From positions 16,425,796-16,489,795 of the forward strand of contig NC_049980.1 in NCBI RefSeq assembly GCF_000003815.2: 64,000 nucleotides of DNA. Reading direction: 5' to 3'. Under the pieces are notes generated by a model. That model made no database searches. It had not been told where the DNA came from and saw nothing but the letters and a program-made list of their open reading frames with translations. Position 1 is the stretch's first letter. Each line of letters starts with the position of its first letter. Source of the DNA: Branchiostoma floridae (Eukaryota; Chordata; Leptocardii; Amphioxiformes; Branchiostomatidae). Shown in pieces: positions 241 to 57,604 of this stretch. The translations under genes and the position numbers were made by a program.

Positions 241-27517
<27,277 letters not shown>

Positions 27518-37000: not shown

Positions 37001-38966
37001 TTTTCATGTTACTGAGATGGGATTTGAGTTTTACTTAGGAAGTAATTGAGTGAGCGAGCTATGGTTGAATGTAGTCAATTTTGGTGACAAAAGTACTTGA
37101 ACAAATTGGCAAAATTGCAGACTTGTAAATTCAGAGAACTGAAGGAATCAATAGTGTATCTGTAATTTTCTAAAATTCTTACTTTGCTATAGCAGCATGT
37201 ATAAGATGCAGCAGTGCTGTGCAGTCCTTTCCACCATTGAAGCTCACACAGAACTCTGGGACTTCATACTTCTCCAGACACTCCTCAACTACTGACAAAG
37301 CTGCCTTGACTACAGAAAACAACAACAGAGAAACCAATTTACAGTTAAGTACTAGTAATGTCTTGTTATCAGCATATAAAAAGCTATCATTACTTGTTCA
37401 TCTGGCATCGCATGCCTGCACATGTATGCACAGTATATCATTCAACAAATCACCACACAAGGTAAAGTCATGCATGAAAAAGAATCTTTTAACATAAAAA
37501 TTTCAAGTTGCTGGCTTGGGAACATTCAAATTAAAGAAAGATTTTTCTTACAAGATACGTACAGTCAAGCCAGTGCAAGTGATCCCCTAATTCACATAAA
37601 GACAATGTGATGACTTTTTGGTGGTCCTTTTAGACATGTTTTACCATTGACAAAGGCATTGAAAGTCCTGTCCATCACATAGTGACCACCTGTCAAAATA
37701 ACTTAACAGGGGGTCTCCTAAACTGTAATAAAGACACTACAAGGAGCCTACATTACAAGCTGTAACCTACCCTTGATGCCGAGAGGATCTCCATCTTTGT
37801 GTGCCAGGCCATACACCTCTTGTACTGCCTGTCCTACAGGATCTCTCTCTACATAGTTAACTACTTTATCTGGGGGCAGCAAACTGAGCAGATGTTGATG
37901 GGCTTCCTTCAAGTCCTCTTCCGATTCTGATTCCAGAGTCAGCTTGACTCTGTAGTAATTATTGTACCAGTTTGGATAGGACCCCAGCTGTACCCTACTG
38001 TGGTATTTGGCATCAACGATATTCAGGTATGGTGCAATGGACGTCTCATCAGCACTGACATAAACTTCCTTGAAATGAAAGGTGACATCCTTGTTAGAAA
38101 ACACATTTTCCAACATGGTCAGGGCTTTCTCCATCAGGGCTGGGATGCCAGGAAAGACGAACACGTTGTGCACGTTGATGATGGGGAAGCGAGATTTTTG
38201 CTTGGTTTTCGTGTCGTAACCAAAGAGCAGTTTTGCGCTCTTGGGTACGAGGGCCATCTTCATTCGTGGTGAGGACATATCATTGGCATCTGCACCGAGG
38301 TACTTCTGACACAGTTCCACTAATTCAGGGTTGGGTTCAAGCTTCTCCCCAAAGGCATTGGCAACCCCTTGGAAGGTGAGGTCATCGTGTGTCGGACCTA
38401 TCCCACCAGCTGTAAGGACGTAGGTGTAGCGTTTGGAGAATAGTGCCACTTCATCCGCTATGGTGGGGAGGTCATCTCCGATTCACTGACACACGCTCAA
38501 CTTTCACACCGAGGGAGTGGAGTTTTCTGGAACAAAAAGTTACATATTGTGTTACAACATACAAATCAGACTTCTCGGCATTGAATATAAATGTTATTTA
38601 TTCATTCGTTTTGGGCTTTTCAAAAACAAATGAAGAGGGGAGTTGATGATCACCCCCACCAGTTATAGGCTAGGTTACCCTTCTGTGTCGAAGCTTTAAC
38701 CCCCTCTATCCTGATGTCCTGACATCACCTATCTCCAAGTGTAAATATTTCGGTGTCATCACTCCCATTTTAACAGACCGTTTGACCTGTAACAGTGACA
38801 TTAGCTGAGGACATAACAGGCGGAGGGGGGCAAGACGGCGACGCAAAAGCTATGAAAGCAACATTGCTGCAGATGTCTGACCTGCAGATGAAGTGCGTGT
38901 TGGTGTCCTGTGTGTACCCCTTCAGGATCTCATCCCCGATGATGATGACCCCTGCCGTGGTGTGGT
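34095..38966 (-). pseudogene. FLAD1: FAD synthase (FLAD1), 5' truncated and carrying a frameshift
   Basis: FLAD1 makes FAD from FMN and ATP in cytosol and mitochondria. Minus-strand exons are about 38966-38882 (partial), 38526-37771, 37309-37183, 36853-36755, 36507-36312, 35634-35561 and 34233-34095. The N-terminal molybdopterin-binding-like domain shows [20 protein letters not shown] and LTAGGIGPTHDDLTF. The C-terminal PAPS-reductase-like synthase domain shows [49 protein letters not shown] and a C-terminus RPAYMLEDQ. Exon phases agree throughout except in 37771-38526, where one extra base near 38481-38483 breaks the frame between VERVSV and GDDLPTIADEV. Upstream, coding sequence ends where the mobile element starts, with no splice acceptor visible. 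The gene may be inactivated in this haplotype, or the indel may be a sequence error with the 5' exon displaced by assembly. Confidence 0.88.
38690..38813 (+). pseudogene. Candidate non-LTR reverse-transcriptase remnant in FLAD1 intron
   Basis: In one plus-strand frame the sequence reads [20 protein letters not shown], then TCNSDIS and a stop. K-x-KYLG-v-i...L-T...I is the pattern found near the end of reverse-transcriptase domains of jockey/CR1-like elements. It is a short antisense fragment between FLAD1 exons 38526 and 38882. Confidence 0.35.
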
Positions 38967-39890
38967 GTAATACTCAGCCAAGCCGCGTGGCGGCGCCAAG
39001 ATACACGCACTTTTCGGGCCATTTTCAACAACCTGTTACAGCGCGATGAATAGGCGCATGTGGTTGAAACTTGGTGGAAGTTTTCAACAAACCCTCCTCT
39101 TGCTTTTTTTCTACTTTTAATTGAAATGGTGCCTCTTAAGGTTCCGGGTCGGAGTTTAAATCTGACCGGAGTTGGCGTAAGGGTATGGTAATAGGCCGGA
39201 AGTGCGGTTTGGTTTCCTATGTTTTGGTCCCGATTTCCATAAAATCGTTATAGCTGTGTATGAATCTTTTTATTTTCTGATAAGCCTGTTAGTTGTAGCA
39301 TTTATTGGTGGCGTATTGTTGATTGTGCAGCGAAGACTTTGTGGTACTATTTCGTGCCATCGGCAACGTGACCTTTTCGCCTGATGACCCGGATCGTGCG
39401 TTCTATGTCCGCCACGGGTGGGTTGGGGTCATCGTAGATTGCGGAAAAGTTATCACATGGATTTTTTTTTATTTTCATTTTTCAGATTTATGAAGTAATG
39501 AGCTTTATTGGTTTCTAGGCGGTTTCCCTGGGAAAATTCGTTTTTTTCGCGCAGCCGTGTTTAGAAAATGCGTAAAAATAACACATTTTTTTCAAAAAGT
39601 TACTTTTTTCGTCATTATTTACCCAAAATATTGTAGAAGTAGAAACCATTAAATCAGTGAATCACGAAGCTGCATGACACCACTTTCCATCAGAGTAATG
39701 AAAAATGTCGGCCCATGTTCCTTAGGGAACTCACAGCCCTTTCGGCCGAGGGTGTCAGATTTGCCACGAAATCGTGAAAAAACTCCGGTCCGAGACCTTA
39801 ATAGGACGGGGCTACGTCATAAGTAATGGCGCAATGACATTTTTTTCACTTCTTTAGAAACATTGTGCCGTGGGCTACCAGAAAACTGCC
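38966..39890 (+). repeat. Left direct terminal repeat of the composite element
   Basis: It begins TGTAATACTCAGCC and aligns with the right repeat at a constant offset of 9,016 bp up to 39797. A variable block follows (39798-39826, versus 48814-48839), and then it aligns at offset 9,013 up to CAGAAAACTGCC at 39890. The second half continues into the body of unit A. No protein is convincingly encoded. It abuts FLAD1 coding sequence. Confidence 0.9.
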
Positions 39891-40342
39891 CAAAACCGTG
39901 TTTTTTTTGCTCTTATGATGCCTCCAGGCAGCTTTTATGTATATGCGTCATTTGCCCCCCTCCCCCTTTGTTGCGGCTATGACGTCACCCTGAACCAGAG
40001 CGGGGGTCAAACACCTTTCTCCTTTCACACCTGCCTTTAATCTTCTTTGCCGTTCAGAACTAATAAAAAGAAAGACGCAAGAGTAGGTCTACATCTCTTT
40101 GCACAATCCTACAGTTGTGTGAACCACAGACTTTTTGGTCTTTATTGAAATTTTCTGTGTAATAAAACATGAATTCAAGTTCAATGTTTCCTACTGTTGT
40201 CATTTCATATCATCATATATCATATTGCTTGTTCCGTCTGTCAAAGTAGTATTTTCCTCTATGCGTGCCTTGAAAAGTTGTAAAAAAACGAAGAATTTCG
40301 AGCCTTTATGTGAATTAGCCGACAGGCATCCGGTTGTAATCT

Positions 40343-40753
40343 ATGTTGTTAGAGTCAAAGATGTCTGAATTCTATCTGCATCCACTGTCCGTTGATTATG
40401 CAGAATTCCTCAAACAGAAACTTTTGAACATGTCTGACGCTGCTGACCACAAAGGATGCGTTAAATGGAATCATTGGGTTGACAAAGAAGGATATGGCAG
40501 CACCAAGGTGAGGTCACACTTTGATGACAGACGGTTTACCCTGAATGTCCACCGGCTAATGTACTTTATCCACGCGAGACACATCCTCACCCCCGATCAT
40601 CATACAAGTCACCTCTGTCATCAAAAGCTCTGCATCAACACTGATCATCTGTCCTATGAGCCGGCGGCCGTAAATCTGCAGCGGACAACGTGCAACAGAA
40701 AGGGATACTGTGGCGGACATGACGGATACAAGGACTGCCTTCTCAGACAATAG
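40343..40753 (+). CDS. His-Cys box (I-PpoI-like) endonuclease, copy A
   Basis: This ORF encodes a 136-residue protein with the zinc-binding core of His-Cys box homing endonucleases. From residue 89: SHLCHQKLCIN, then DHL, an E four residues on, N111, R114, C117, C123, H126 and C132. In I-PpoI, as I recall it, the matching block holds the catalytic histidine, the metal-binding asparagine and the zinc-binding Cys/His residues. Thus H90 would be the general base and N111 the metal ligand. Upstream are C39, YGS and VHRLMYFIH, also usual for this family. The predicted activity is a DNA-cleaving nuclease serving the mobile element. The start at 40343 is the first ATG; another in-frame ATG lies at 40361. 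The amino-acid sequence is identical in copy B. It converges with the transposase gene. Confidence 0.85.
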   Translation: MLLESKMSEFYLHPLSVDYAEFLKQKLLNMSDAADHKGCVKWNHWVDKEGYGSTKVRSHFDDRRFTLNVHRLMYFIHARHILTPDHHTSHLCHQKLCINTDHLSYEPAAVNLQRTTCNRKGYCGGHDGYKDCLLRQ

Positions 40754-40808
40754 GTTAGTTGGTCGTTGTTTAGACATTGTTTACGTTTTCGCTGCCCGGT
40801 ACGACACC

Positions 40809-41083
40809 GTAACCCTAACCCTAACTGTAACCCTAACCCTAACTGTAACCCTAACTCTAACTGTAACCCTAACCCTAACCGTAACCCTAACCCTAACTGT
40901 AACCCTAACCCTAACCGTAACCCTAACCCTAACTGTAACCCTAACCCTAACTGTAACCCTAACCCTAACTGTAACCCTAACCCTAACTGTAACCCTAACC
41001 CTAACTGTAACTCCAACCCTAAGTGTAACCCTAACTCTAACCCTAAGTGTAACCCTAACCCTAACTCCAACCCTAACCCTAAT
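40809..41083. repeat. Telomere-like degenerate array, copy A
   Basis: CCCTAA hexamers (the complement of TTAGGG) are interspersed with CTGTAA, CCGTAA, CTCTAA and AAGTGTAA variants. The prevailing higher-order period is 18 bp: two CCCTAA and one CTGTAA. The long ORFs through it (NPNPNC, TLTLTV, VRVRVT) are repeat artefacts. It follows the endonuclease stop codon by about 55 bp. Confidence 0.95.
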
Positions 41084-41225
41084 CATTCATTCATTCATTC
41101 ATTCATTCATTCATTCATTCATTCATTCATTCATTCATTCATTCATTCATCCATCCATCCATCCATCCATCCATCCATCCATCCATCCATCCATTCATTC
41201 ATTCATTCATTCATTCATTCATTCA
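41084..41225. repeat. (ATTC)n-(ATCC)n-(ATTC)n microsatellite, copy A
   Basis: Tandem tetranucleotides switch from ATTC to ATCC and back to ATTC. The block sits between the telomere-like array and the 3' end of the transposase gene. Copy B has the same three-part order with slightly different lengths. Confidence 0.97.
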
Positions 41226-41269
41226 AATGACAACAGAGTCTGTGTTAAGGACCGAATATGACCGAAAGT

Positions 41270-41275
41270 TTTATT
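41270..41275 (-). terminator. Poly(A) signal of transposase copy A
   Basis: The minus strand reads AATAAA just past the transposase stop codon (41283-41285). The same signal is at 45462-45467 in copy B. Confidence 0.6.
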
Positions 41276-41282
41276 AAGTTTG

Positions 41283-43468
41283 TCAATCAATGATACTTTC
41301 CGACTCCTCTGATCTTAAGTAAGCGTGTTCATCAGGATGAAGGACTGGTGGCGAGCTGTCAGACATCAGTTTCTCCACTCGTTTTGACACAGTTTTGAGC
41401 GAGGCCCTGTGCCGACGTGTGCGGTGGTCATCGGACTGTTGGCGACGTTTGTCAGCGTCAGCCTCTCGGTCTAGCTGCAATAACCTCTGAGCCGCTTCCC
41501 CGCCTGGACGTGGTGCGACCCCGAAGTGCTGTCCTAGACGGGCTAGGGATTCCCCCATCCCGCCTGACACAGCGGAGTGCATAGCACTGTAAGCCCTCAT
41601 CTCACCCAGAGTCTTAAAAGTCAAAGACTTGGGCAGAGACTTGTGCATACGTCTGTGCATTGCCTCAACGCTGTTCGTGGACCGCAAGTAGCGCTGCTTC
41701 ATTGCTTTGTCCTCCGACAACTTCGAATCAAGGACTTCAGTTAGCCCGATTCTGTCCTCCCCAGTTAGTAAGAGATATTTCTTTCTGGGGAGGTAGGAAG
41801 GGGTGTGGTCGGAGGCCACAGCTGAACAGGAACACACAAAGGAAAGATCGAAGCACTTTGTGTGGTTGCCGGAAAAGCAGTCAAGGATGTTGTTTTTAGC
41901 TTCCGAAACTGACTCAAGGAATTTAGAGTCGTCGGTGGGGTAGCACCCCCGCGCTCCCTTAAGTTCCCCTGAACAGCGCGAGGCTATGGCTTTCGACAAG
42001 ACAGTACGGAAGGCTTTTTCTGCTTCCTTCACGACCTTGCCGGTAAACCCCACCTGCCCTGTCAGAAGTTGGGAACTTAAGTTCACGCGGAAAACACTGG
42101 ACCGCTGACGACGCGAGGTGTGAACCATGCAATCTTGTTGCTCTATGCTAAAGCCGGGGTGGAGGTTTTGGGTAGCCGATTGTGCGCCTCTGAACATCTG
42201 TCCACACCCGTCAGTAACCAGAGCTTTAAGCAGAAGTGGTGACTCTTTGCAATTATACATCTCTCGGGTAACTTTCTCAGCTAACCATTCTTCTGCATTT
42301 CCATAGGTTGCGATTTTGGATAGGTTGACGCTTCTCCGACCTTTCCAAATTTGTTTGCAAAGCCGAAACCAATCAGCATGTTTTCAGCTGTTTCCTGTTC
42401 CCTAACGGGAAGCGCTACCTGTGTGGATTTCTGGTGGAACCCCTTGTAACAGGGGTTATTGTAGCAACAATCCATTGCTGCGGCTGAGCCCGCTGGCTTG
42501 CCAGCTTCCACCTGATCTCCCCTTAGCTCCATGACTTGCCGCAATCGCCCCCTGTTGTCGGCAAGGGCCTGCTGTGTCAAGGATATGAGTGGACCCGCCA
42601 GCCCAGTCGCCAGGTTGTGCAAGCTACTCTTGGTGGGTCCCGACAGCTCGACGCTGCAGAACAGCGTGTGGAGCGTCGACGGCCCGGCTGGGACTTTCGT
42701 CAATCCAAGCGTGAGCTGCACATTCTTCTTACCGGGCAAGGGGCCTCTCGTGCGGCCAGGAAGACGCTCCGCTTCCTCGTACAGCTTGCGCCTTGGCGTG
42801 GTGAACCCGCACCTACCGCATCGTACGGCCTCCCAGTAACCAAGCCCGAACTTTCTCTCCCTATCCGCTGGGATCTTCACCTTGGGGAGGCAGCAGGGGC
42901 TGGCAATGCTGTGTGAAAGGATGAATTCATCCATTAGCTTCTCTAGGAGAGGAACATTGAAAGTCCTGTCCTCAGTAACACTTGCAGTTGGAGTAGGAGG
43001 CCGAGTAGCCGACGCACCTACCAGGCTCTCTAAAACCGTAGGCGGCCTCTGTCTGGGCCGGAGCCTGCCAGGTGTGTCGTCTACAGACGGACGCCGCGCC
43101 AAACTGCAAATATCACTGTCGACACGCTGATATTTTGTGTAACTATGTTGGTCCTTTACGTCTGTATCTACCGCTTTATTATCATCGTCTACTATGTGAC
43201 CCGTGCTCCTGCGTCGCACTTCATTCCCCACCTCAAACTTTACTACGGGTTTTCGCTTTTTGGGTCTTCCAGCTTTTTTTACTTGTATAATATCACTTGA
43301 TGCGGCTGGCAACACAACGCTTTCTGTGATGACATCGGCGTCGGTTTCGTCGGGGGGATCTTCAATGACTACATCATTACTCTGACTAGCGTCGTATCCG
43401 GTGGAACTGACTTCTATTTCCGCCAGCTGTAACGGGATATACGTGTGTTGCCAAGCCATACTCACCAC
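41283..43468 (-). pseudogene. Transposase-like protein, copy A, one-base deletion
   Basis: This copy aligns with the intact 728-codon gene of copy B but lacks one A near 42302-42304 (CCATAGG versus CCAATAGG). The frame is therefore split: 42281-43468 encodes residues 1 to about 390 plus a short aberrant tail, and 41283-42260 the C-terminal portion starting inside the domain. No other coding difference was noticed. Whether copy A is truly broken or the deletion is a consensus error cannot be decided here. Confidence 0.85.
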
Positions 43469-43762
43469 TCATTTGAATAAATTAACCGTTAACAGATAGT
43501 TCGATTTAGAAATTTGTTATGGAGTTACGTCATCACCAAGGTGAACTTAGCAACGCGACTATTTTGGAACGCAAGGTGATGACGTTCACCTGCGCCGTGG
43601 ATTTGGGGCGCACAGTGCTGCTTTTCCGGCATTTTCTCGTATTGAAAGGGTACTTGAGGCGAAACAATTCATTAAAATTACAGACAGAACAGTTCTGCAC
43701 ATACCAGTGTCTTGTTTAGTTGTTGACATTGTATAAAACGTCTACAAATTGCTTACAAACAT
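43469..43762 (-). promoter_or_regulatory. Upstream region of transposase copy A, with inverted CRE-like motifs
   Basis: This region directly precedes the transposase ATG and is repeated at 47662-47955. It contains CGTCATCACC (43528-43537) and its exact reverse complement GGTGATGACG (43575-43584), each including a CRE-like half site TGACG. A 66-codon plus-strand ORF (43519-43719, conserved at 47712-47912) runs through it, but the identity of the two copies gives no evidence for coding. A promoter is the simplest reading. Confidence 0.45.
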
Positions 43763-44005
43763 TTCGTCATTATTTACCCAAAATATTGTAGAAGTAGAAA
43801 CCATTAAATCAGTGAATCACGAAGCTGCATGTTCGGGCCATTTTCAACAACCTGTTACAGCGCGATGAATAGGCGCATGTGGTTGAAACTTGCTTTCGGC
43901 CGAGGGTGTCAGATTTGCCACGAAATCGTGAAAAAACTCAAATGGTGCCTCTTAAGGTTCCGGGTCGGAGTTTAAATCTGACCGGAGTTGGCGTAAGGGT
44001 ATGGT
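43763..44005. repeat. Scrambled junction between units A and B
   Basis: Four pieces of the terminal repeat lie end to end in altered order: 43763-43831 matches 39608-39676, 43832-43892 matches 39013-39073, 43893-43939 matches 39739-39785, and 43940-44005 matches 39124-39189. From 44006 on the sequence matches 39854 onward without break. All are in direct orientation. A complete terminal repeat is missing between the units. Confidence 0.92.
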
Positions 44006-44494
44006 TTAGAAACATTGTGCCGTGGGCTACCAGAAAACTGCCCAAAACCGTGTTTTTTTTGCTCTTATGATGCCTCCAGGCAGCTTTTATGTATATGCGT
44101 CATTTGCCCCCCTCCCCCTTTGTTGCGGCTATGACGTCACCCTGAACCAGAGCGGGGGTCAAACACCTTTCTCCTTTCACACCTGCCTTTAATCTTCTTT
44201 GCCGTTCAGAACTAATAAAAAGAAAGACGCAAGAGTAGGTCTACATCTCTTTGCACAATCCTACAGTTGTGTGAACCACAGACTTTTTGGTCTTTATTGA
44301 AATTTTCTGTGTAATAAAACATGAATTCAAGTTCAATGTTTCCTACTGTTGTCATTTCATATCATCATATATCATATTGCTTGTTCCGTCTGTCAAAGTA
44401 GTATTTTCCTCTATGCGTGCCTTGAAAAGTTGTAAAAAAACGAAGAATTTCGAGCCTTTATGTGAATTAGCCGACAGGCATCCGGTTGTAATCT

Positions 44495-44905
44495 ATGTTG
44501 TTAGAGTCAAAGATGTCTGAATTCTATCTGCATCCACTGTCCGTTGATTATGCAGAATTCCTCAAACAGAAACTTTTGAACATGTCTGACGCTGCTGACC
44601 ACAAAGGATGCGTTAAATGGAATCATTGGGTTGACAAAGAAGGATATGGCAGCACCAAGGTGAGGTCACACTTTGATGACAGACGGTTTACCCTGAATGT
44701 CCACCGGCTAATGTACTTTATCCACGCGAGACACATCCTCACCCCCGATCATCATACAAGTCACCTCTGTCATCAAAAGCTCTGCATCAACACTGATCAT
44801 CTGTCCTATGAGCCGGCGGCCGTAAATCTGCAGCGGACAACGTGCAACAGAAAGGGATACTGTGGCGGACATGACGGATACAAGGACTGCCTTCTCAGAC
44901 AATAG
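44495..44905 (+). CDS. His-Cys box (I-PpoI-like) endonuclease, copy B
   Basis: This ORF has the same 136-residue sequence as the copy at 40343, at an offset of 4,152 bp, including upstream sequence back to the scrambled junction. Catalytic and zinc-binding candidates are H90, C92, C97, H102, N111, C117, C123, H126 and C132. Because the two copies are identical, one cannot tell from this window whether the protein is under selection. Confidence 0.85.
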   Translation: MLLESKMSEFYLHPLSVDYAEFLKQKLLNMSDAADHKGCVKWNHWVDKEGYGSTKVRSHFDDRRFTLNVHRLMYFIHARHILTPDHHTSHLCHQKLCINTDHLSYEPAAVNLQRTTCNRKGYCGGHDGYKDCLLRQ

Positions 44906-44966
44906 GTTAGTTGGTCGTTGTTTAGACATTGTTTACGTTTTCGCTGCCCGGTACGACATCGTCGCA

Positions 44967-45278
44967 CCTAACTCTAACTGTAACCCTAACCCTAACCGTA
45001 ACCCTAACCCTAACTGTAACCCTAACCCTAACTGTAACCCTAACTCTAACTGTAACCCTAACCCTAACTGTAACCCTAACCCTAACTGTAACCCTAACCC
45101 TAACTGTAACCCTAACCCTAACTGTAACCCTAACCCTAACTGTAACCCTAACCCTAACTGTAACCCTAACTCTAACCCTAAGTGTAACCCTAACCCTAAC
45201 TCTAACTCCAACCCTAAGTGTAACCCTAACTCTAACCCTAAGTGTAACCCTAACCCTAACCCTAAGTGTAACCCTAAT
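44967..45278. repeat. Telomere-like degenerate array, copy B
   Basis: The hexamer types and 18-bp period are the same as in copy A. Together with the neighbouring microsatellite, this array accounts for the 40-bp net length difference between the two units (offset 4,152 before it, 4,192 after it). The variant order differs from copy A, as expected of a fast-evolving tandem repeat. Confidence 0.95.
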
Positions 45279-45415
45279 CATTCATTCATTCATTCATTCA
45301 TTCATTCATTCATTCATTCATTCATTCATTCATTCATTCATCCATCCATCCATCCATCCATCCATCCATCCATCCATCCATCCATTCATTCATTCATTCA
45401 TTCATTCATTCATTC
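45279..45415. repeat. (ATTC)n-(ATCC)n-(ATTC)n microsatellite, copy B
   Basis: It has the same three-part tetranucleotide arrangement as at 41084-41225 and is followed by the 3' end of the intact transposase gene. Confidence 0.97.
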
Positions 45416-45461
45416 AAAATGACAACAGAGTCTGTGTTAAGGACCGAATATGACCGAAAGT

Positions 45462-45467
45462 TTTATT
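45462..45467 (-). terminator. Poly(A) signal of transposase copy B
   Basis: AATAAA on the minus strand about 10 nt downstream of the TGA stop, before the microsatellite. Its closeness to the stop means the 3' UTR would be very short. Confidence 0.6.
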
Positions 45468-45474
45468 AAGTTTG

Positions 45475-47661
45475 TCAATCAATGATACTTTCCGACTCCT
45501 CTGATCTTAAGTAAGCGTGTTCATCAGGATGAAGGACTGGTGGCGAGCTGTCAGACATCAGTTTCTCCACTCGTTTTGACACAGTTTTGAGCGAGGCCCT
45601 GTGCCGACGTGTGCGGTGGTCATCGGACTGTTGGCGACGTTTGTCAGCGTCAGCCTCTCGGTCTAGCTGCAATAACCTCTGAGCCGCTTCCCCGCCTGGA
45701 CGTGGTGCGACCCCGAAGTGCTGTCCTAGACGGGCTAGGGATTCCCCCATCCCGCCTGACACAGCGGAGTGCATAGCACTGTAAGCCCTCATCTCACCCA
45801 GAGTCTTAAAAGTCAAAGACTTGGGCAGAGACTTGTGCATACGTCTGTGCATTGCCTCAACGCTGTTCGTGGACCGCAAGTAGCGCTGCTTCATTGCTTT
45901 GTCCTCCGACAACTTCGAATCAAGGACTTCAGTTAGCCCGATTCTGTCCTCCCCAGTTAGTAAGAGATATTTCTTTCTGGGGAGGTAGGAAGGGGTGTGG
46001 TCGGAGGCCACAGCTGAACAGGAACACACAAAGGAAAGATCGAAGCACTTTGTGTGGTTGCCGGAAAAGCAGTCAAGGATGTTGTTTTTAGCTTCCGAAA
46101 CTGACTCAAGGAATTTAGAGTCGTCGGTGGGGTAGCACCCCCGCGCTCCCTTAAGTTCCCCTGAACAGCGCGAGGCTATGGCTTTCGACAAGACAGTACG
46201 GAAGGCTTTTTCTGCTTCCTTCACGACCTTGCCGGTAAACCCCACCTGCCCTGTCAGAAGTTGGGAACTTAAGTTCACGCGGAAAACACTGGACCGCTGA
46301 CGACGCGAGGTGTGAACCATGCAATCTTGTTGCTCTATGCTAAAGCCGGGGTGGAGGTTTTGGGTAGCCGATTGTGCGCCTCTGAACATCTGTCCACACC
46401 CGTCAGTAACCAGAGCTTTAAGCAGAAGTGGTGACTCTTTGCAATTATACATCTCTCGGGTAACTTTCTCAGCTAACCATTCTTCTGCATTTCCAATAGG
46501 TTGCGATTTTGGATAGGTTGACGCTTCTCCGACCTTTCCAAATTTGTTTGCAAAGCCGAAACCAATCAGCATGTTTTCAGCTGTTTCCTGTTCCCTAACG
46601 GGAAGCGCTACCTGTGTGGATTTCTGGTGGAACCCCTTGTAACAGGGGTTATTGTAGCAACAATCCATTGCTGCGGCTGAGCCCGCTGGCTTGCCAGCTT
46701 CCACCTGATCTCCCCTTAGCTCCATGACTTGCCGCAATCGCCCCCTGTTGTCGGCAAGGGCCTGCTGTGTCAAGGATATGAGTGGACCCGCCAGCCCAGT
46801 CGCCAGGTTGTGCAAGCTACTCTTGGTGGGTCCCGACAGCTCGACGCTGCAGAACAGCGTGTGGAGCGTCGACGGCCCGGCTGGGACTTTCGTCAATCCA
46901 AGCGTGAGCTGCACATTCTTCTTACCGGGCAAGGGGCCTCTCGTGCGGCCAGGAAGACGCTCCGCTTCCTCGTACAGCTTGCGCCTTGGCGTGGTGAACC
47001 CGCACCTACCGCATCGTACGGCCTCCCAGTAACCAAGCCCGAACTTTCTCTCCCTATCCGCTGGGATCTTCACCTTGGGGAGGCAGCAGGGGCTGGCAAT
47101 GCTGTGTGAAAGGATGAATTCATCCATTAGCTTCTCTAGGAGAGGAACATTGAAAGTCCTGTCCTCAGTAACACTTGCAGTTGGAGTAGGAGGCCGAGTA
47201 GCCGACGCACCTACCAGGCTCTCTAAAACCGTAGGCGGCCTCTGTCTGGGCCGGAGCCTGCCAGGTGTGTCGTCTACAGACGGACGCCGCGCCAAACTGC
47301 AAATATCACTGTCGACACGCTGATATTTTGTGTAACTATGTTGGTCCTTTACGTCTGTATCTACCGCTTTATTATCATCGTCTACTATGTGACCCGTGCT
47401 CCTGCGTCGCACTTCATTCCCCACCTCAAACTTTACTACGGGTTTTCGCTTTTTGGGTCTTCCAGCTTTTTTTACTTGTATAATATCACTTGATGCGGCT
47501 GGCAACACAACGCTTTCTGTGATGACATCGGCGTCGGTTTCGTCGGGGGGATCTTCAATGACTACATCATTACTCTGACTAGCGTCGTATCCGGTGGAAC
47601 TGACTTCTATTTCCGCCAGCTGTAACGGGATATACGTGTGTTGCCAAGCCATACTCACCAC
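45475..47661 (-). CDS. Transposase-like protein with AT-hook, copy B (intact, 728 aa)
   Basis: This is a single uninterrupted ORF. Visible features are an AT-hook (GRPKKRK, residues 67-73), a CGRCGF zinc-knuckle-like motif in the middle, the paired-cysteine stretch DCCYNNPCYKGFHQKSTQ, and TDGCGQMF (D420) followed by DCMVHTSRRQR (D446, C447, H450). Towards the C-terminus comes STNSVEAMHRRMH (E602) with LPKSLTF and SAMHSAVSGG. The order D, then C-x-x-H, then a late T-N-x-V-E and PK-x-x-TF resembles Mutator-like/Kolobok-like DDE transposases of invertebrates; this is pattern recall, not a search. D420, D446 and E602 are candidates only. AATAAA follows the stop on this strand (45462-45467). The start is the first ATG; MVSMAW begins just after a short A/T-rich leader. 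Confidence 0.75.
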   Translation of the reverse strand: MVSMAWQHTYIPLQLAEIEVSSTGYDASQSNDVVIEDPPDETDADVITESVVLPAASSDIIQVKKAGRPKKRKPVVKFEVGNEVRRRSTGHIVDDDNKAVDTDVKDQHSYTKYQRVDSDICSLARRPSVDDTPGRLRPRQRPPTVLESLVGASATRPPTPTASVTEDRTFNVPLLEKLMDEFILSHSIASPCCLPKVKIPADRERKFGLGYWEAVRCGRCGFTTPRRKLYEEAERLPGRTRGPLPGKKNVQLTLGLTKVPAGPSTLHTLFCSVELSGPTKSSLHNLATGLAGPLISLTQQALADNRGRLRQVMELRGDQVEAGKPAGSAAAMDCCYNNPCYKGFHQKSTQVALPVREQETAENMLIGFGFANKFGKVGEASTYPKSQPIGNAEEWLAEKVTREMYNCKESPLLLKALVTDGCGQMFRGAQSATQNLHPGFSIEQQDCMVHTSRRQRSSVFRVNLSSQLLTGQVGFTGKVVKEAEKAFRTVLSKAIASRCSGELKGARGCYPTDDSKFLESVSEAKNNILDCFSGNHTKCFDLSFVCSCSAVASDHTPSYLPRKKYLLLTGEDRIGLTEVLDSKLSEDKAMKQRYLRSTNSVEAMHRRMHKSLPKSLTFKTLGEMRAYSAMHSAVSGGMGESLARLGQHFGVAPRPGGEAAQRLLQLDREADADKRRQQSDDHRTRRHRASLKTVSKRVEKLMSDSSPPVLHPDEHAYLRSEESESIID

Positions 47662-47981
47662 TCATTTGAATAAATTAACCGTTAACAGATAGTTCGATTT
47701 AGAAATTTGTTATGGAGTTACGTCATCACCAAGGTGAACTTAGCAACGCGACTATTTTGGAACGCAAGGTGATGACGTTCACCTGCGCCGTGGATTTGGG
47801 GCGCACAGTGCTGCTTTTCCGGCATTTTCTCGTATTGAAAGGGTACTTGAGGCGAAACAATTCATTAAAATTACAGACAGAACAGTTCTGCACATACCAG
47901 TGTCTTGTTTAGTTGTTGACATTGTATAAAACGTCTACAAATTGCTTACAAACATAACCAGTTGTAAAAATGGAACTTACA
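47662..47981 (-). promoter_or_regulatory. Upstream region of transposase copy B
   Basis: It matches 43469-43762 without visible change up to CTTACAAACAT, including the inverted CGTCATCACC/GGTGATGACG pair. It then has about 26 bp (AACCAGTTGTAAAAATGG and following) absent from copy A before the right terminal repeat starts. Confidence 0.45.
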
Positions 47982-48903
47982 TGTAATACTCAGCCAAGCC
48001 GCGTGGCGGCGCCAAGATACACGCACTTTTCGGGCCATTTTCAACAACCTGTTACAGCGCGATGAATAGGCGCATGTGGTTGAAACTTGGTGGAAGTTTT
48101 CAACAAACCCTCCTCTTGCTTTTTTTCTACTTTTAATTGAAATGGTGCCTCTTAAGGTTCCGGGTCGGAGTTTAAATCTGACCGGAGTTGGCGTAAGGGT
48201 ATGGTAATAGGCCGGAAGTGCGGTTTGGTTTCCTATGTTTTGGTCCCGATTTCCATAAAATCGTTATAGCTGTGTATGAATCTTTTTATTTTCTGATAAG
48301 CCTGTTAGTTGTAGCATTTATTGGTGGCGTATTGTTGATTGTGCAGCGAAGACTTTGTGGTACTATTTCGTGCCATCGGCAACGTGACCTTTTCGCCTGA
48401 TGACCCGGATCGTGCGTTCTATGTCCGCCACGGGTGGGTTGGGGTCATCGTAGATTGCGGAAAAGTTATCACATGGATTTTTTTTTATTTTCATTTTTCA
48501 GATTTATGAAGTAATGAGCTTTATTGGTTTCTAGGCGGTTTCCCTGGGAAAATTCGTTTTTTTCGCGCAGCCGTGTTTAGAAAATGCGTAAAAATAACAC
48601 ATTTTTTTCAAAAAGTTACTTTTTTCGTCATTATTTACCCAAAATATTGTAGAAGTAGAAACCATTAAATCAGTGAATCACGAAGCTGCATGACACCACT
48701 TTCCATCAGAGTAATGAAAAATGTCGGCCCATGTTCCTTAGGGAACTCACAGCCCTTTCGGCCGAGGGTGTCAGATTTGCCACGAAATCGTGAAAAAACT
48801 CCGGTCCGAGACCGAAACAACCAGAGGGGCGAGTAGAACTGGCGCAATGACATTTTTTTCACTTCTTTAGAAACATTGTGCCGTGGGCTACCAGAAAACT
48901 GCC
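47982..48903 (+). repeat. Right direct terminal repeat of the composite element
   Basis: It is a complete copy of the left repeat, starting TGTAATACTCAGCC and ending CAGAAAACTGCC. It has its own version of the variable block after GGTCCGAGACC (GAAACAACCAGAGGGGCG). Flanking sequence to the right is unrelated to the left repeat's continuation. Confidence 0.9.
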
Positions 48904-51900
48904 GAATGTAGGGTGCGGCAGATCTTAATTAAAAAAGGTGCTTATCCATGCACTAGATAGATATTGTCAAACACGAAATTGTCAAACTTAACAATTAGGT
49001 ATTGTAATGTGCTGTTTAAAGTAATTATCAAAGCCTACCGGCCCTGGGGTGGTCGATACAATTATCGGCGTGGGAGATTTGGGGTCACCTGAGGGTCAGC
49101 CAGGGTTCATCTGCAGGAGCTCGGCAGAGGTGACAGCTGTCGGGAACAACTTCCTGGTGCCCAGGTGAGTATTTTGGTGCGCACGGACGTGTTCAGAAAG
49201 CGAGGGGCAACATGAACGTCACGTCGGTTAGCCCACACAACACTACTAACTCCAATGTTGGTTCGGAAGAAAAAAAGTCTAACTTCTGTCTTATGTAACA
49301 ACATGATAGCACGTTAGAAAATTCACGGTGAACGTTATCACAAAACGTATTGTGTTCGTGCCATGAAATAGATCATTGATAGAGTTCGAGAACAAATCGA
49401 CACAGATTGGCACAGTTCTACTAAATCCATTTTAACTGAGGATAACAGAATTGTATTTTGGACTTTTGACCCTGAGTGTCTTTCACCATATTTGTCATCA
49501 AGAATAATGTTTCTCTGTAAATCATAACAAACAGGCGAAGTTTTATATGTGAAATAGCTTGTCATCTAGTGCAAAATGGTACTAGTGCACCAGGAAAGTG
49601 CGTGTTTGGGGTGCATTGATTTGGGCACGGAACATGATTCTGTGTATCCTTGCGCAGTGACTGTGCGATGATCAATGGCGCCAGCACCCCGACTACATAA
49701 ACCACGGTGAGCGGGTCGTGAGAATTAAGTATCGAAATTTCCCTCGATTGTATGGATAGTTTCTAATGTGTCATTTGAAATGACATTCTGTTTGTGATAC
49801 ATTAGTGTGATAACCACCACGATTAAAATACATCAATGGCCGCCCAGAAAGGTCTGAGATATTCTTGACATTTGTTTCCTTAAGCTTCGCCAAGAAAGTT
49901 GTGTTTTTAGTATACTAGTACTAGTATAAGTTCGCCCATGGTCACTCAAGGAACTTTGACACCAGCTCGAGCAGACGTCTTCCATTCTACGGGCAGTCCA
50001 ACACAAATCACTTGGCCTTTCACCCATAGTTCGAGAGGAACGTTAATGGATATAAATAATACAGATCATGGCAAATAATAAATGAGAAAGTTGTTTAAGT
50101 GTTAAAAGATGGTATATTCACTAACAAGTGACACATTAGGTTAGGCAAAGGGGAATACCAGCGGGCACAGATTATGACAAGAACTTTATTGCACGCCAAC
50201 TGTACATGGTATTTATGTATGGCAACAACCACTAGTAGTACACAAAGTGCATAATATAGGTATAGAATAAGGGTCCTAATTAACATAGCAATAAGGACTG
50301 ATAAAAATTATTTGATATACTGTTACGATAGAGTGGGCTAATCATTAGTTTCGGTATTCTTTCTAATAACAAAGCAGTCCTTTATATAGTAGCCTTTTTT
50401 CCATTATGGGAGTTGTGGCATCTAAAAGATACAAAATGTGTATACAAATCTGTTTGTAGACGAGTCCCTTGAAATTTGTGAAAGTGAAATTCATCTTCAA
50501 TATGCTTTGGGCAGAATTGACCGAACCTTTGGTTAGGGGCTACATTGTAGTATCTGCCTGTTTCGATATTCAATTCATGGCTACTGATTCTTAATTGAGT
50601 TATTGCTTTACGAGTTTCATTAAGCTTTACGAAGTTATTTATATCAATAAGGAATGTTTCTTGTTCATAACTTTTTTATTTGTTAAGAAAGAGCAGTTTT
50701 GAATTTAACCACTACTGTTTATATATATATTGAGGATATATATATGTATATATAAGCGCAGTTGGTAAGCAATATAATCTACTTCATAAGCCTCAGATTT
50801 CATCCATATTTCTTCAAATCCATGGTAATAAAGATGATCATGCAGTAAATGAATTAAAAAAAGAAAGTAGATACAGTGCTGTATGCATCGCGTAGCAAAG
50901 AGTAAGTTTTGGTATATGATAATGAAACTCTTGTTGTTCCCGTTTTGAGTTTAATTTTCAGTATTTCCCTCACCTTACCGATTGTGGCACCAGGCTGTCT
51001 TGCTCTCAGCTTGCCAATGTTTAGTACTGTCTCAGTCTGTCTGTTTTTAACAAAAAAGCTGTTCTGATTAACAAATGCCTTTGCAGACAGCAAGTTCTTG
51101 CTCGCGATCGTCATTGATAAGAAAAAGACCTTGTGATTTTTTTTTTGCTATGTAACAGTATTTTCCGAAATTGTCGGTTATCATTTATTTCTCTAGTAAA
51201 TGTTGCAAATGGCTATGGACATTCGCACATGTCTCACCAAGTATTTCAGTTGACGTCGTCTGTGCCATGTTGGATCACAGTGTACGCTCGTACAGCAAAC
51301 GAAGATGCCATTGCTTTTAATCATCCAGTTACCGGCCATTATTATATGGACACTGGAGGATTCAAATCATAATTACTATGACGTCAATGAAAAGCCTGTA
51401 TTCCATATACAACAGGTATTTTCAAAGACGGTTGAAAGGGGAATTGTAGAGGCTATTATCTATTTTTTTGTTTGATGTGATATCTCTGATGTGTAAAAGT
51501 AACCTTACTTCGCGATAAGTCGTAAATTGAGGTATCGAAGAAAAGGCACTAGATACAGGGATGAATATTTACATAACACGTGGTACCGCAGCCGCGCCCT
51601 ATCAAACGTCCACGTTGAGTCTGGTGCTGGGGCACACGCCCAGACGTCCCGAACACGTGCGCAGCTGTGTCCTTGTGTTCAATTGGATGGGAATTAGTCT
51701 GTCCCAGATGTCCCCCAGAGTCTCCGTTAGGAATAGATCTAGTTTCAACCATATCAGTGAAACGCCTTGGAAGGAGAAAGTTTTTTTTCGGATTTTCACG
51801 TGATCGGCAATCTTCAGTTTGAACCGTATAACTGAATGGATTAGGAACTGACTTGTTGAATTTGAATGGTGAATACCAATATACAATTAATCTCAGTGTC

Positions 51901-52033: not shown

Positions 52034-53989
52034 CTAAGGTTGCTGTCTGTACAAGTCATGATCAGTGGTGACGGTTTCCTTTTCGTTTGCGCAGCAATTT
52101 GCAGTGGTGTTTCTTGTATGCTCACTACCAGTCGGACTCGTATCTTGTGTGTTTTCCTTTGCTATGGCATAAAGTTTTTTCACCTTTGTCGGACAATAAT
52201 TTGTTGTTGAGCTGCTTGCCTGCACAGTTGTGAGACAGCTATTATTCAGGGCCATGTCTCGTTGGTACAGTGTATTTGCTGCTGCTACTCCGTAAGGCAT
52301 TTCGTCCTTCCCAATTTGCAAAGCAGAATTTTCCGTTACACCTGCCAGAACGTCGGGATTTACAGCGTGAGTTGTATTTTCCCTATAGACCGGTAGAGGG
52401 GGCGGTGCTGCAGAGGCGTATTGGTGATCTTGGCCATCCTCAACTGCACCTGGTACGTCATCGTTGTCGTAGTGATGAACCTGAACTTCTGTAGTACCGA
52501 CGGTGTCCGCTGGGAGCGCTTCTAGAACGCAGTGGAGACTATAATTCGTGTCACCCATTTTCATCCGCGACCAGTGAATTTCTCGCAATGGTCGAAGCGG
52601 AAAGGCATTCAAGTCCGATTCTCCTTCTGTTGAATACTCTGTCAACTCTCGGAGAGTATGGAAAGGGATGCAGACGACCATGGCCTGTACCCCCACATGC
52701 AATGTTGCACTGGTGGTGCTATTTTTTTCTCGAGGTCGATTTGTTCGTTGTTTTCTCCAACAAATTAATGTAGTAAGAAAGAGTGTGATAAGAATGGCGC
52801 TAAGAGCGATGACAGTGATGGATAACACGATTGGTTTTGCTTGTAAGTTGATGTTTCCAACTGTACAGAACATCTGATCAAATGACGATAAAGTTAACCA
52901 GTTGGAACAGCAGGATTGGTTCGTTGAACCCGCACAAATATCTGTGTTGTTTGTACCTGATTGTGAGTTCACGGATTTATGTTCCTTTTTCTCATTTGGT
53001 CGCCGGTTAAGACACAGCAGCAGATCAAAATGATAGGTTTTCGTGCTTCCATACCTTTTCAGTTCACTGGTGTATATGCCCGAGTCTTCCTCGGTGAAGT
53101 CTTTAACCACGAACGCTTCGGTGAGAAACTCAACCTTGTGGCGCCCTGTCGGTGTGTTCCAGAAGTAGGGCTGAACGTGACGCTTGACTCCGCTCACCAA
53201 CGGTAGACGAATAGAACCATGCTCACTTACGAAAAAGGTGTGGGGACAAACACCAAAGTATTTATGCCGACTTTTGATGAAGGAAGTCCTTGCGATGAAA
53301 GAGCGGTTATGTTTAGTGTCGATGGTGTAAGCTGGTATTCTGGGCCACACTTCTATGTGCTCATCGGTAATCATATAATCACGGCTGAGTTGTTCAACAT
53401 CAGGACAGCGCAAAGGGTTCCCCTGTAACTGATACGAAACGTTCGGGTGTGCTGATTTTATATCGTTGGGTATTTGTCTGATCTTGTTGACCATGAGCAA
53501 TACTAACAAGAGTTCTTTACTCGGAATCAGCCTGATGGCCTGCATGGGAAACACAGAAAGTCTATTCGCGGAAAGCTCCAGGAACTCCAGACTTGCTAGA
53601 CCGTGAAAGGTGCGTTCTGATACGGCAGAAATGAGGTTGTTTGAGAGGAACAGATCCGAAAGCGCAGCGAGGTCGGAAAAAATGAAGTCGCGAAGGGAAA
53701 CGATGTCGTTTCTGTCCAGATCTAGAACCCGAAGTTTGCACAGCCCTTGGAAGGTTTGCGGAGACAAGTCGTTTACCCTGTTGTTGTCGATAAACAGATA
53801 CCGTATGTATGGGGTTGTTTTGAAAGAGCCCAGGTGAGATATTCTGTTGTGTGACAGCTTGACAGTGTAGGCGTCAGACTTGATGGAGTCGATGGGGACG
53901 TGCGTTAGGTTAAGGCCCGTGTAATGAACGGTCCTCCCAGTAGTAATGATCAGCGAGGTCAACATAAACAAGGCAGTCGCGGATCCCAT
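52034..53989 (-). CDS. LRR-Ig single-pass membrane receptor, single exon
   Basis: This ORF encodes 651 residues in one exon. The signal peptide (about 1-18) is followed by five or so leucine-rich repeats (about 43-190: LFIDNNRVNDLSPQTF, VLDLDRNDIVSL, LFLSNNLISAV, FLELSANRLSVFP). A truncated LRR cap, NPLRCPDVEQL, lacks the usual C-x-C. An Ig-like domain (about 248-326) has C248, W277, DSGIY (302-306) and C326. A transmembrane helix spans about 386-410, then WRKQR and a cytoplasmic tail of about 240 residues with a Pro-rich PPPLPVY stretch and several tyrosines. The architecture matches LRRIG-type cell-surface proteins, which are numerous in lancelets and used in adhesion or immune and neural signalling; the ligand cannot be predicted. 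No TIR domain was found. The first ATG directly starts the signal peptide. Confidence 0.88.
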   Translation of the reverse strand: MGSATALFMLTSLIITTGRTVHYTGLNLTHVPIDSIKSDAYTVKLSHNRISHLGSFKTTPYIRYLFIDNNRVNDLSPQTFQGLCKLRVLDLDRNDIVSLRDFIFSDLAALSDLFLSNNLISAVSERTFHGLASLEFLELSANRLSVFPMQAIRLIPSKELLLVLLMVNKIRQIPNDIKSAHPNVSYQLQGNPLRCPDVEQLSRDYMITDEHIEVWPRIPAYTIDTKHNRSFIARTSFIKSRHKYFGVCPHTFFVSEHGSIRLPLVSGVKRHVQPYFWNTPTGRHKVEFLTEAFVVKDFTEEDSGIYTSELKRYGSTKTYHFDLLLCLNRRPNEKKEHKSVNSQSGTNNTDICAGSTNQSCCSNWLTLSSFDQMFCTVGNINLQAKPIVLSITVIALSAILITLFLTTLICWRKQRTNRPREKNSTTSATLHVGVQAMVVCIPFHTLRELTEYSTEGESDLNAFPLRPLREIHWSRMKMGDTNYSLHCVLEALPADTVGTTEVQVHHYDNDDVPGAVEDGQDHQYASAAPPPLPVYRENTTHAVNPDVLAGVTENSALQIGKDEMPYGVAAANTLYQRDMALNNSCLTTVQASSSTTNYCPTKVKKLYAIAKENTQDTSPTGSEHTRNTTANCCANEKETVTTDHDLYRQQP

Positions 53990-54274
53990 TTTCTATCTAC
54001 TCAGTGTACTCGGCAGACAAAGGCTTGCTATGATAACAAAGAAATAACACAAACAATAAATATATAGACGTCTAAGTGTGTCTATCCAGTCCTGATAACA
54101 AGCATATTGTACAGATTATAACATTCCTTATGTTAACAAAGTGTCCCGACCCAAAAGGCCATAACCGGGACCAGCCATCATAAAATGTGCCTTATATGAC
54201 GATATATTTTACTCTACTACTTGAAGGTGGAGATATACAGTAGAAGCCGTTTGATTGTACACCCAATTTGCCAG

Positions 54275-55391: not shown

Positions 55392-55717
55392 GGAATTTCA
55401 ATGAAAAGAAAGTACCAAAAATGTTACCTTATAAACATCTAACATTATTTTAGTTTGTTTTGTGACCCCGGGCCCTCACATAGGCAACCGTGGTGCTCGA
55501 TCCATGAATGTGCCATCAAAGAAAGCGATGTACTGTTGTAATTATTAATTACTGTATTAGCTTTACAGTGGTATACAGTACAGTTCAAAGGTATTGATTA
55601 AGCAGCAACGGAGATATGATCAACTGAAGCCAAGTTTGACTAAGACTTGAACATCGAATCTATTATAGAGATGTATTGTTTCTGATTATTGTTATTGTTC
55701 ATTGCAGGACAACCATA

Positions 55718-57604
55718 ATGGCAGCGGAGGATTCGGAGTTCAGCGTTATTGGCTACGCCACCTTCCTTCATAAGACTCGAGAACTGAGGCTTTACCAGGG
55801 AGGGCGTGTCGTCTTGCTGGGTGCTCTGTGCACGGAGATAAAAGCTAACCAGTCGCCTCGGCTAAAAAAGACTTGCAAGTTGGGTGAAGCCGGTTTCCAA
55901 TGGCAGTGCGCAGGCCTCAACATCCGGCATGAGCAACATGGTGATGACGTCGACACGTACAACATCAGGTGGAGTAGCACCTCGGATCCAAACTTCCGGC
56001 TGCAGGACCAGTTTGAGATGGCGGGAGCGCACTGGTACGGCTGTGGCACCGTGCACCAACAGCTCTGGCCCATCGAGAAATGGCAAAAGGACATCTCCCC
56101 GTTTGTTTCACCTTTTGGTTACATGATTGAGCGTTATTGGTTATCCTCGTCGGGCGTGGCAATAGTGGTTGGTAACGAGGTTCCGTTATTTGTAGGCATG
56201 AACAGCCAGGGCAATGGGAAGTTGTCGTTCTTAGCTCAGTTTAATGATTCCCCGTACAATAATCCTAAAGGGCGCAGGCCGTCTCTGGAGTACACCATCA
56301 TCTCGGGCCCGAGTCCGTTAGTTGTGCAGAAGTTCGTCATGAAGAAGTTCTTCTCTCTTCCTCGCGGTATACCCGACGAGCGCATGTTCCGTTCGCCCGT
56401 GTGGTCCACCTGGGCGCGCTACAAGGTCCACGTCAGCCAGGGCAGCGTGCTGGACTACGCCAGGGAGATTTCTTCCCACGGATTCAGCAACAGTCAGATA
56501 GAGATAGACGACGACTTCACTACGAAGTATGGCGATCTCACGTTCAACCCAAACAAATTCCCCGACGCTAAAGGGATGGTGGACCAGCTGAAGGCTGATC
56601 ATTTTCGTGTCACGTTGTGGGTTCATCCTTTCTCAAACTTAGACTCGCAGTCTTTCGCTGAAGGTCGTGAGAAGGGGTTCTTCCTGGGTTCTCACGATGA
56701 GGCAGACGGTGGAGTGAAAGCCGTGGAATGGTGGAACGGATCGGGAGCGGTCGTCGACGTGACCAATCCGAAAGCGCGGGAATGGTATTGTGGCCGCCTC
56801 CGCCACCTGCAGCAAGAATCTGGAATCGATTCCTTCAAATTTGATGCTGGAGAGAACCTTTATCTACCGCCACACCTCTCCGCACACCAACCCATGCTCA
56901 ACCCTTCTGACTTCACCACAAAATACGTTCAGACGGTCGCTTCATTCGGTGCCATGGTAGAAGTGCGGGTAGGATACCGCAACCAAGATTTGCCCATCTT
57001 CGTCCGTATGATGGACAAAGACTCGAACTGGGGTTACGATAACGGTCTGCGGACCATCATCCCCTCCGCGTTGACGCTCGGTATCCTGGGATATCCCTTC
57101 ATCCTCCCTGATATGATTGGCGGGAACGCGTACGAAGCAGGCTTCCACGAGACGCGGCTGCCCGACAGGGAGTTGTACCTCCGCTGGGTACAGGTCACTG
57201 CATTCCTGCCGGCTATGCAGTTTTCCATCGCTCCATGGCAATACGATGAAGAAGTCGTCCAAATCTCAAAACGGTATGTCGACCTACACGAGAACTTCGT
57301 GACGCCCCTCATCCTGAAGTTCGCACTCGAGGCGGTGGAAGACGGCAGTCCGATCATACGGCCTCTGTGGTGGCTGGCCCCGAGCGACGAACAGTCACAG
57401 ATTGAAGACTCGGAGTTCTTGATCGGAGACGAGGTTCTTGTGGCACCAATATTGGACCAGGGAAGGACCTTCCGTGACGTGTACCTTCCGCCTGGCGGAG
57501 CGTGGCAGGATTGCAGGGACGGTGCCGTCTATGACGGAGGGCAATTATTGAAAGACGTGTCTGTGCCTTTGGGAGATGTGGCATACTACACAAAGAAAGG
57601 GTAG
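55718..57604 (+). CDS. GH31 family glycosidase, MYORG-like
   Basis: The ORF codes for 628 residues from the ATG at 55718 (MAAEDSEF) to TAG. A splice-acceptor-like CATTGCAG lies just before it at about 55708, so upstream exons are possible. The GH31 barrel is clear: FRSPVWSTWARYKVHVSQG, QIEIDDDFTTKYGDL, VTLWVHPFSN, SFKFDAGENLYLPP, and RMMDKDSNWGYDNGL with LPDMIGGN. The predicted nucleophile is D376 (KFDAGE) and the acid/base D433 (MMDKD). Their 57-residue spacing equals that I recall for human MYORG (D463, D520), an alpha-galactosidase-type enzyme of the secretory pathway. Unlike MYORG, which is a type II membrane protein, no membrane anchor is seen, either because it lies in an upstream exon or is absent. 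The substrate is inferred, not shown. Confidence 0.88.
   Translation: MAAEDSEFSVIGYATFLHKTRELRLYQGGRVVLLGALCTEIKANQSPRLKKTCKLGEAGFQWQCAGLNIRHEQHGDDVDTYNIRWSSTSDPNFRLQDQFEMAGAHWYGCGTVHQQLWPIEKWQKDISPFVSPFGYMIERYWLSSSGVAIVVGNEVPLFVGMNSQGNGKLSFLAQFNDSPYNNPKGRRPSLEYTIISGPSPLVVQKFVMKKFFSLPRGIPDERMFRSPVWSTWARYKVHVSQGSVLDYAREISSHGFSNSQIEIDDDFTTKYGDLTFNPNKFPDAKGMVDQLKADHFRVTLWVHPFSNLDSQSFAEGREKGFFLGSHDEADGGVKAVEWWNGSGAVVDVTNPKAREWYCGRLRHLQQESGIDSFKFDAGENLYLPPHLSAHQPMLNPSDFTTKYVQTVASFGAMVEVRVGYRNQDLPIFVRMMDKDSNWGYDNGLRTIIPSALTLGILGYPFILPDMIGGNAYEAGFHETRLPDRELYLRWVQVTAFLPAMQFSIAPWQYDEEVVQISKRYVDLHENFVTPLILKFALEAVEDGSPIIRPLWWLAPSDEQSQIEDSEFLIGDEVLVAPILDQGRTFRDVYLPPGGAWQDCRDGAVYDGGQLLKDVSVPLGDVAYYTKKG

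Follow-up and report, generated by a model that had tools for sequence, protein, structure and literature searches.

Identity of the element

Do a homing-type nuclease gene and a transposase gene that converge on each other in Branchiostoma floridae belong to one mobile element, and is such an element already known? We analysed a stretch of 64,000 nucleotides (C2:16425796-16489795, the window; coordinates without a contig refer to it) of the host assembly, which comprises 513 Mb in 431 contigs. To judge from its sequence, the element is almost certainly a KolobokP DNA transposon of the type with ~660-bp long terminal direct repeats (LTDRs), arranged as a dimer LTDR-INT-INT-LTDR, where INT is the part between the repeats, with the middle LTDR either lost or absent from the assembly. 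According to a preliminary description of this DNA, no characterised class combined these genes. That claim does not stand, and an outcome that the description itself named as refuting it has been observed. The class is already known: KolobokP has been in print since 2022 (Kojima and Bao, Mob DNA 13:24, PMC9587614), with families submitted to Repbase and hosts in several animal groups, three Branchiostoma species among them.

The lineage is named after its paired ends, and the published features correspond to those of the locus. KolobokP elements carry two long terminal direct repeats of a ~450-bp or a 660-bp class; the repeats in the window are 658 bp long and identical. Their LTDRs have inverted ends of up to 18 bp with the pattern 5'-RR...YY-3', represented in the window by GG...CC. 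A DDE transposase gene is followed downstream by a His-Me nuclease gene on the opposite strand, as in the window. Besides solo LTDRs, the forms (LTDR-INT)n-LTDR and LTDR-(INT)n-LTDR are on record, and in the second of these a single 4-bp spacer remains between INTs (PMC9587614). Solo LTDRs and multimers occur among the relatives in the host genome, and the window contains an INT-INT junction with one 4-bp spacer. The likeness is drawn at the level of the class; the window family may be one of the 228 families in the supplement of that report.

Structure of the locus

The locus spans ~9.7 kb. The outer LTDRs (39140..39797 and 48156..48813) lie on the minus strand, which is also the strand of the transposase, and have related solo copies elsewhere. 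The first has the ends GGTTCCGGGTCGGAGTTT and AAACTCCGGTCCGAGACC. The inverted ends, GGTTCCGGGTCGGAGTTT and GGTCTCGGACCGGAGTTT, are alike at 14 of 18 positions by hand count. INT copy 1 (39798..43951, minus strand) begins with TTAATAGG and was delimited by the LTDR edge and the analysis of the middle junction; INT copy 2 (44006..48151, minus strand) was delimited by sequence comparison. The middle junction (43762..44005) is a mosaic in which INT end, LTDR end and LTDR start alternate and INT start follows, covering the final 190 bases of copy 1 and the initial ~50 bases of copy 2. All pieces are in register, to 3 bases or less, with one TTAA at 43952-43955, and a full third LTDR is absent.

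The direct repeats and the mosaic had been overlooked in the preliminary description, which placed the element at 38966..48903. The true LTDR ends are 39140 and 48813, and beyond them lie copies of INT sequence: one of the INT end at 38966..39139, identical to 47982-48155, and one of the INT start at 48840..48903, after 26 non-INT bases (48814-48839). Segments 38966-39893 and 47982-48906 were first taken as one 0.92-kb repeat. Only the core of this repeat was found to recur alone in the genome search, and thus the core is the LTDR.

The INT stretches outside the outer LTDRs and the mosaic are probably consensus errors, in which reads of other copies would have covered both unique flanks and an INT-TTAA-INT junction. 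In particular, the INT-end copy at 38966..39139 probably overlies the true flank. The compared blocks of the two copies are identical throughout 953 columns in one case and in 2527 of 2528 in the other, the sole difference being a gap, and thus the duplication is not due to chance. The same consensus errors may have inflated this near-identity, and therefore no insertion date is drawn from it.

One possibility is that the element belongs to KolobokP, with the dimer itself a product of assembly: either the middle LTDR of a real (LTDR-INT)2-LTDR was collapsed, or two haplotype copies of LTDR-INT-LTDR were joined. We give this serious weight, even if it is probably not the case. It is favoured by the mosaic, by the INT stretches beside the outer LTDRs and beside a copy on contig C11, and by the unequal lengths of the telomere-like arrays in the two units. 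Further, the C11 copy ends at a gap of 100 N, at the exact base where a fragment on C3 starts, and the two may represent one locus. The assembly derives from shotgun data and underwent haplomerging (PMC7269912). On the other hand, the mosaic pieces keep the register on one TTAA that is proper to INT-TTAA-INT, whereas a false overlap would fall anywhere. Such INT-INT junctions have also been reported in clams and mussels (PMC9587614).

Genes of the element

Open frames and Pfam matches confirm the two copies of the convergent gene pair noted earlier. The nuclease gene (40343..40753 and 44495..44905, plus strand) encodes an identical protein of 136 aa in both copies, which matches zf-His_Me_endon (PF05551, 1.1e-10), the zinc-loop family of I-PpoI and the His-Cys box homing endonucleases. 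Unlike I-PpoI-type enzymes, which are encoded in a group I intron, it is encoded in a DNA transposon. The PDB match to I-PpoI (1evw) is weak alone (E 0.23, aligned with copy 2). The alignment covers 46 residues without gaps and retains S97, H98, H110, E114 and N119, positions whose roles are taken from PMC9587614. A fold predicted from the single sequence was unusably poor, with a mean predicted local distance difference test score (pLDDT) of 43.8.

The transposase gene lies on the minus strand. Copy 2 (45475..47652) has an intact frame matching the Mutator-like domain PF20700 (6.9e-62), and its product is 43% and 41% identical to the transposases of two other host loci, L069 and L070. The product has 725 aa when counted from the ATG; the 728 aa given previously is correct for the frame from stop to stop. 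Copy 1 (41283..43459) is frameshifted by a one-base difference into parts of 392 aa (42281-43459) and 325 aa (41283-42260). Hence the earlier statement that the frames are intact holds for the transposase of copy 2 and fails for that of copy 1. Residues D330, D417, C444xxH447 and E599 are invariant in the three transposases and are putative catalytic positions by analogy with the signature in PMC9587614, where a C/DxxH signature is likewise ascribed to Mutator (MuDR). A GRP motif in the protein looks AT-hook-like in our own reading. The transposase had no PDB sequence match up to E 1.

Both units have a telomere-like array between the genes, as had been noted. These arrays (40809..41082 and 44967..45277) are degenerate 18-bp repeats of CCCTAA with TGTAAC variants, differ in length and continue as (TCAT)n to 41225 and 45416, respectively. 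The C11 copy carries such an array also. In this the element differs from published KolobokP, as the main text of the report has no word starting with "telomer". No Rfam matches up to E 1 were observed across 38700-49200.

Solo repeats, target duplications and arrays

Solo relatives of the window LTDR were found on C6, C15 and C4 (86-93% identity), together with a split copy on C13. The solo LTDR on C6 is flanked by a target duplication, GTAT. Genome-wide, the LTDR-end pattern produced 267 matches, against 0 for the reversed control. Flanks that have A in the first position of the pattern escape it, and the flank counts below derive from 100 listed ends of the 267. A perfect 4-bp duplication (TAAA, AGAA, TGAA and TTTT among others) was observed at 10 of the 12 listed solo LTDRs with both ends. 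Thus an LTDR of this kind is itself a mobile unit, with relaxed TTAA-like targets. Mutator (MuDR) elements, whose DDE domain model PF20700 is shared by the window transposase, have target duplications of 8-9 bp. The element considered here differs from them in its paired LTDRs and in these 4-bp duplications. For KolobokP, target duplications of 3-5 bp are reported (PMC9587614).

Could the nuclease choose the target sites, as had been suggested? In that case it would open a genomic target, and the transposase would use the break. I-PpoI cleavage leaves a TTAA overhang (PMC9587614) and Kolobok targets are TTAA-like. Indeed, 17 of the 67 listed non-seam LTDR flanks are TTAA, a count to be read with the proviso that non-seam flanks were separated from seam-side flanks by the motif itself, which makes the split circular. 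However, the remaining 50 flanks are not TTAA, the duplications are varied, and the text of PMC9587614 describes KolobokP as having no strong target specificity. Such guidance of insertion is thus very unlikely.

Tandem arrays are formed by a nonautonomous KolobokP-like unit of 1.8 kb that consists of an LTDR of 662 bp and an INT of 1125 bp. One array (L037, G000:C2:16614500-16624400), part of it inverted, lies on the chromosome of the window, ~125 kb past it, and a second one was found on another contig (L038, G000:C1:15936500-15946400).

Recurrence of the gene pair

The search of the host genome yielded at least 36 nuclease and at least 52 transposase matches. A transposase match lies within 3 kb of 15 of the 36 listed nuclease matches, versus 0.02 expected by a simple estimate. 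All 15 pairs are convergent, with 166-576 bp between the genes. Three of them are the window family itself, and the pairs extend down to 23-26% transposase identity. By these counts the pairing of the two genes is not accidental, and the proposal that one mobile element unites a homing-type nuclease with a DDE transposase holds. That an unrelated homing-element nuclease came by chance to lie next to a Mutator-like transposon, the pair then being duplicated locally, is hardly credible: it would suit the listed nuclease matches that lack a transposase match within 3 kb and the L070 transposase, which stands alone, but it is refuted by the recurrence of the convergent pair, and the published lineage has the same arrangement (PMC9587614).

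L069 is a second complete monomer, with two 483-bp repeats (TTAA counted) that are 100% identical and have TTAA on both outer sides. Its convergent genes encode a nuclease of 127 aa (44% identity) and a transposase of 639 aa (43%). Paired repeats surround both genes in L072 (474 bp, 100% identical) and L074 (470 bp, 99.8% identical). L071 (G000:C10:11448800-11456800) is a 3.95-kb tandem duplication containing both genes, with 99% identity over 4.05 kb; its nuclease match contains one stop codon. L073 contains both genes, and a repeat pair was not found between its N gaps. In L070, neither a nuclease match nor repeats were found in the 6.5 kb around the transposase. Read independently, the window locus confirms that a single animal element stably unites a homing endonuclease with a transposase, and it holds an intact copy.

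Points against the assignment and likely mechanism

Some observations weigh against the assignment to KolobokP. Following the first D, KolobokP and a few other lineages are reported to have a CCHC motif (PMC9587614); in the alignment of three, it is missing from the window transposase, whereas L069 and L070 have it. The target duplication is unreadable at the window element, as INT sequence is found beyond each of the outer LTDRs. Among the four solo relatives of the window LTDR only that on C6 has a duplication; the copies on C15 and C13 lack one, and on C4 the left end is worn. Finally, 21 of the 36 listed nuclease matches have no transposase match nearby among the matches listed.

The behaviour of the element is probably explained as follows. 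Acting on the inverted ends of the LTDRs, the transposase would mobilise either complete elements or lone LTDRs and leave a 4-bp duplication of the target. The nuclease would introduce a sequence-specific break, either within an LTDR or at its edge; when this was repaired from another LTDR, LTDR-INT units would be added or removed, producing multimers and solo LTDRs. The sequence supports the anatomy, the recurring convergent pair, the solo LTDRs with target duplications and the tandem arrays; we infer every enzymatic step. Transposition combined with nuclease-induced unequal crossover was proposed by Kojima and Bao, who call the crossover model untested (PMC9587614). A drive-like role of the nuclease is only a model, both there and here.

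A candidate nuclease site

It has been suggested that the nuclease may cut either within LTDRs or where ends abut, apparently with no sequence named (PMC9587614). The cleavage site could be the seam of INT and LTDR. On this reading the internal seams, and not the outer ends, would be the substrate of the captured homing enzyme. We regard this as rather improbable.

The seams in the window are GCCTC-TTAA-GGTTCC and, reversed, TCCTA-TTAA-GGTCTC, and those of the nonautonomous 1.8-kb family are CCCTC-TTAA-GGTTCC and CCCTA-TTAA-GGTATC. Comparison of the two INTs, over the first 603 and the last 503 bases of that in the window, gave no aligned stretch longer than 23 bases. The seams of the 660-bp lineage thus read CCT[C/A]-TTAA-GGT, in register with CTCTC-TTAA-GGTAGC of the I-PpoI site, CTCTCTTAAGGTAGC (PMC6294500). 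Scored against this site, with 15 as the maximum, the window seams reach 11 and 10, those of the nonautonomous family 12 and 12, and those of L069 8 and 8. Beyond TTAA, at least 7 of 11 matching positions have P 0.008 and at least 8 of 11 have P 0.001, for a score that was computed after the motif had been seen.

Other observations disagree with the seam as the site. The motif fails in all three other families with definable repeats (L069, L072 and L074), and a TTAA-GGT seam was not found where the repeats of L072 and L074 begin and end; L071 and L073 yielded no repeat edges. Scores of 11 or more also arise by chance outside the seams. A score of 11 of 15 is reached at six places in the scanned element: two are seams, and the other four represent two sites, each present in both copies. 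A host site at window position 2954 (minus strand), which we take as chance, scores 13 of 15. If the seam were cut, this would explain the precise loss of an LTDR leaving one TTAA as well as the LTDR-driven gain of units, and the unequal-crossover model would gain a concrete DNA substrate to assay.

Neighbouring genes

An FLAD1-like gene is located at 37748-38965 on the minus strand (FLAD1_M, 2.4e-28; MoCF_biosynth, 2.1e-12). An upstream piece stops exactly where INT sequence starts, at 38966, and thus either the insertion or an assembly error abuts this gene. Threonine-rich, mucin-like host frames occupy 1883-9841, with Mucin2_WxxW in the first, the sole frame scanned. Other host genes encode a leucine-rich repeat protein (52034-53992), a family 31 glycosidase (55640-57604) and a sulfatase (62106-63026).

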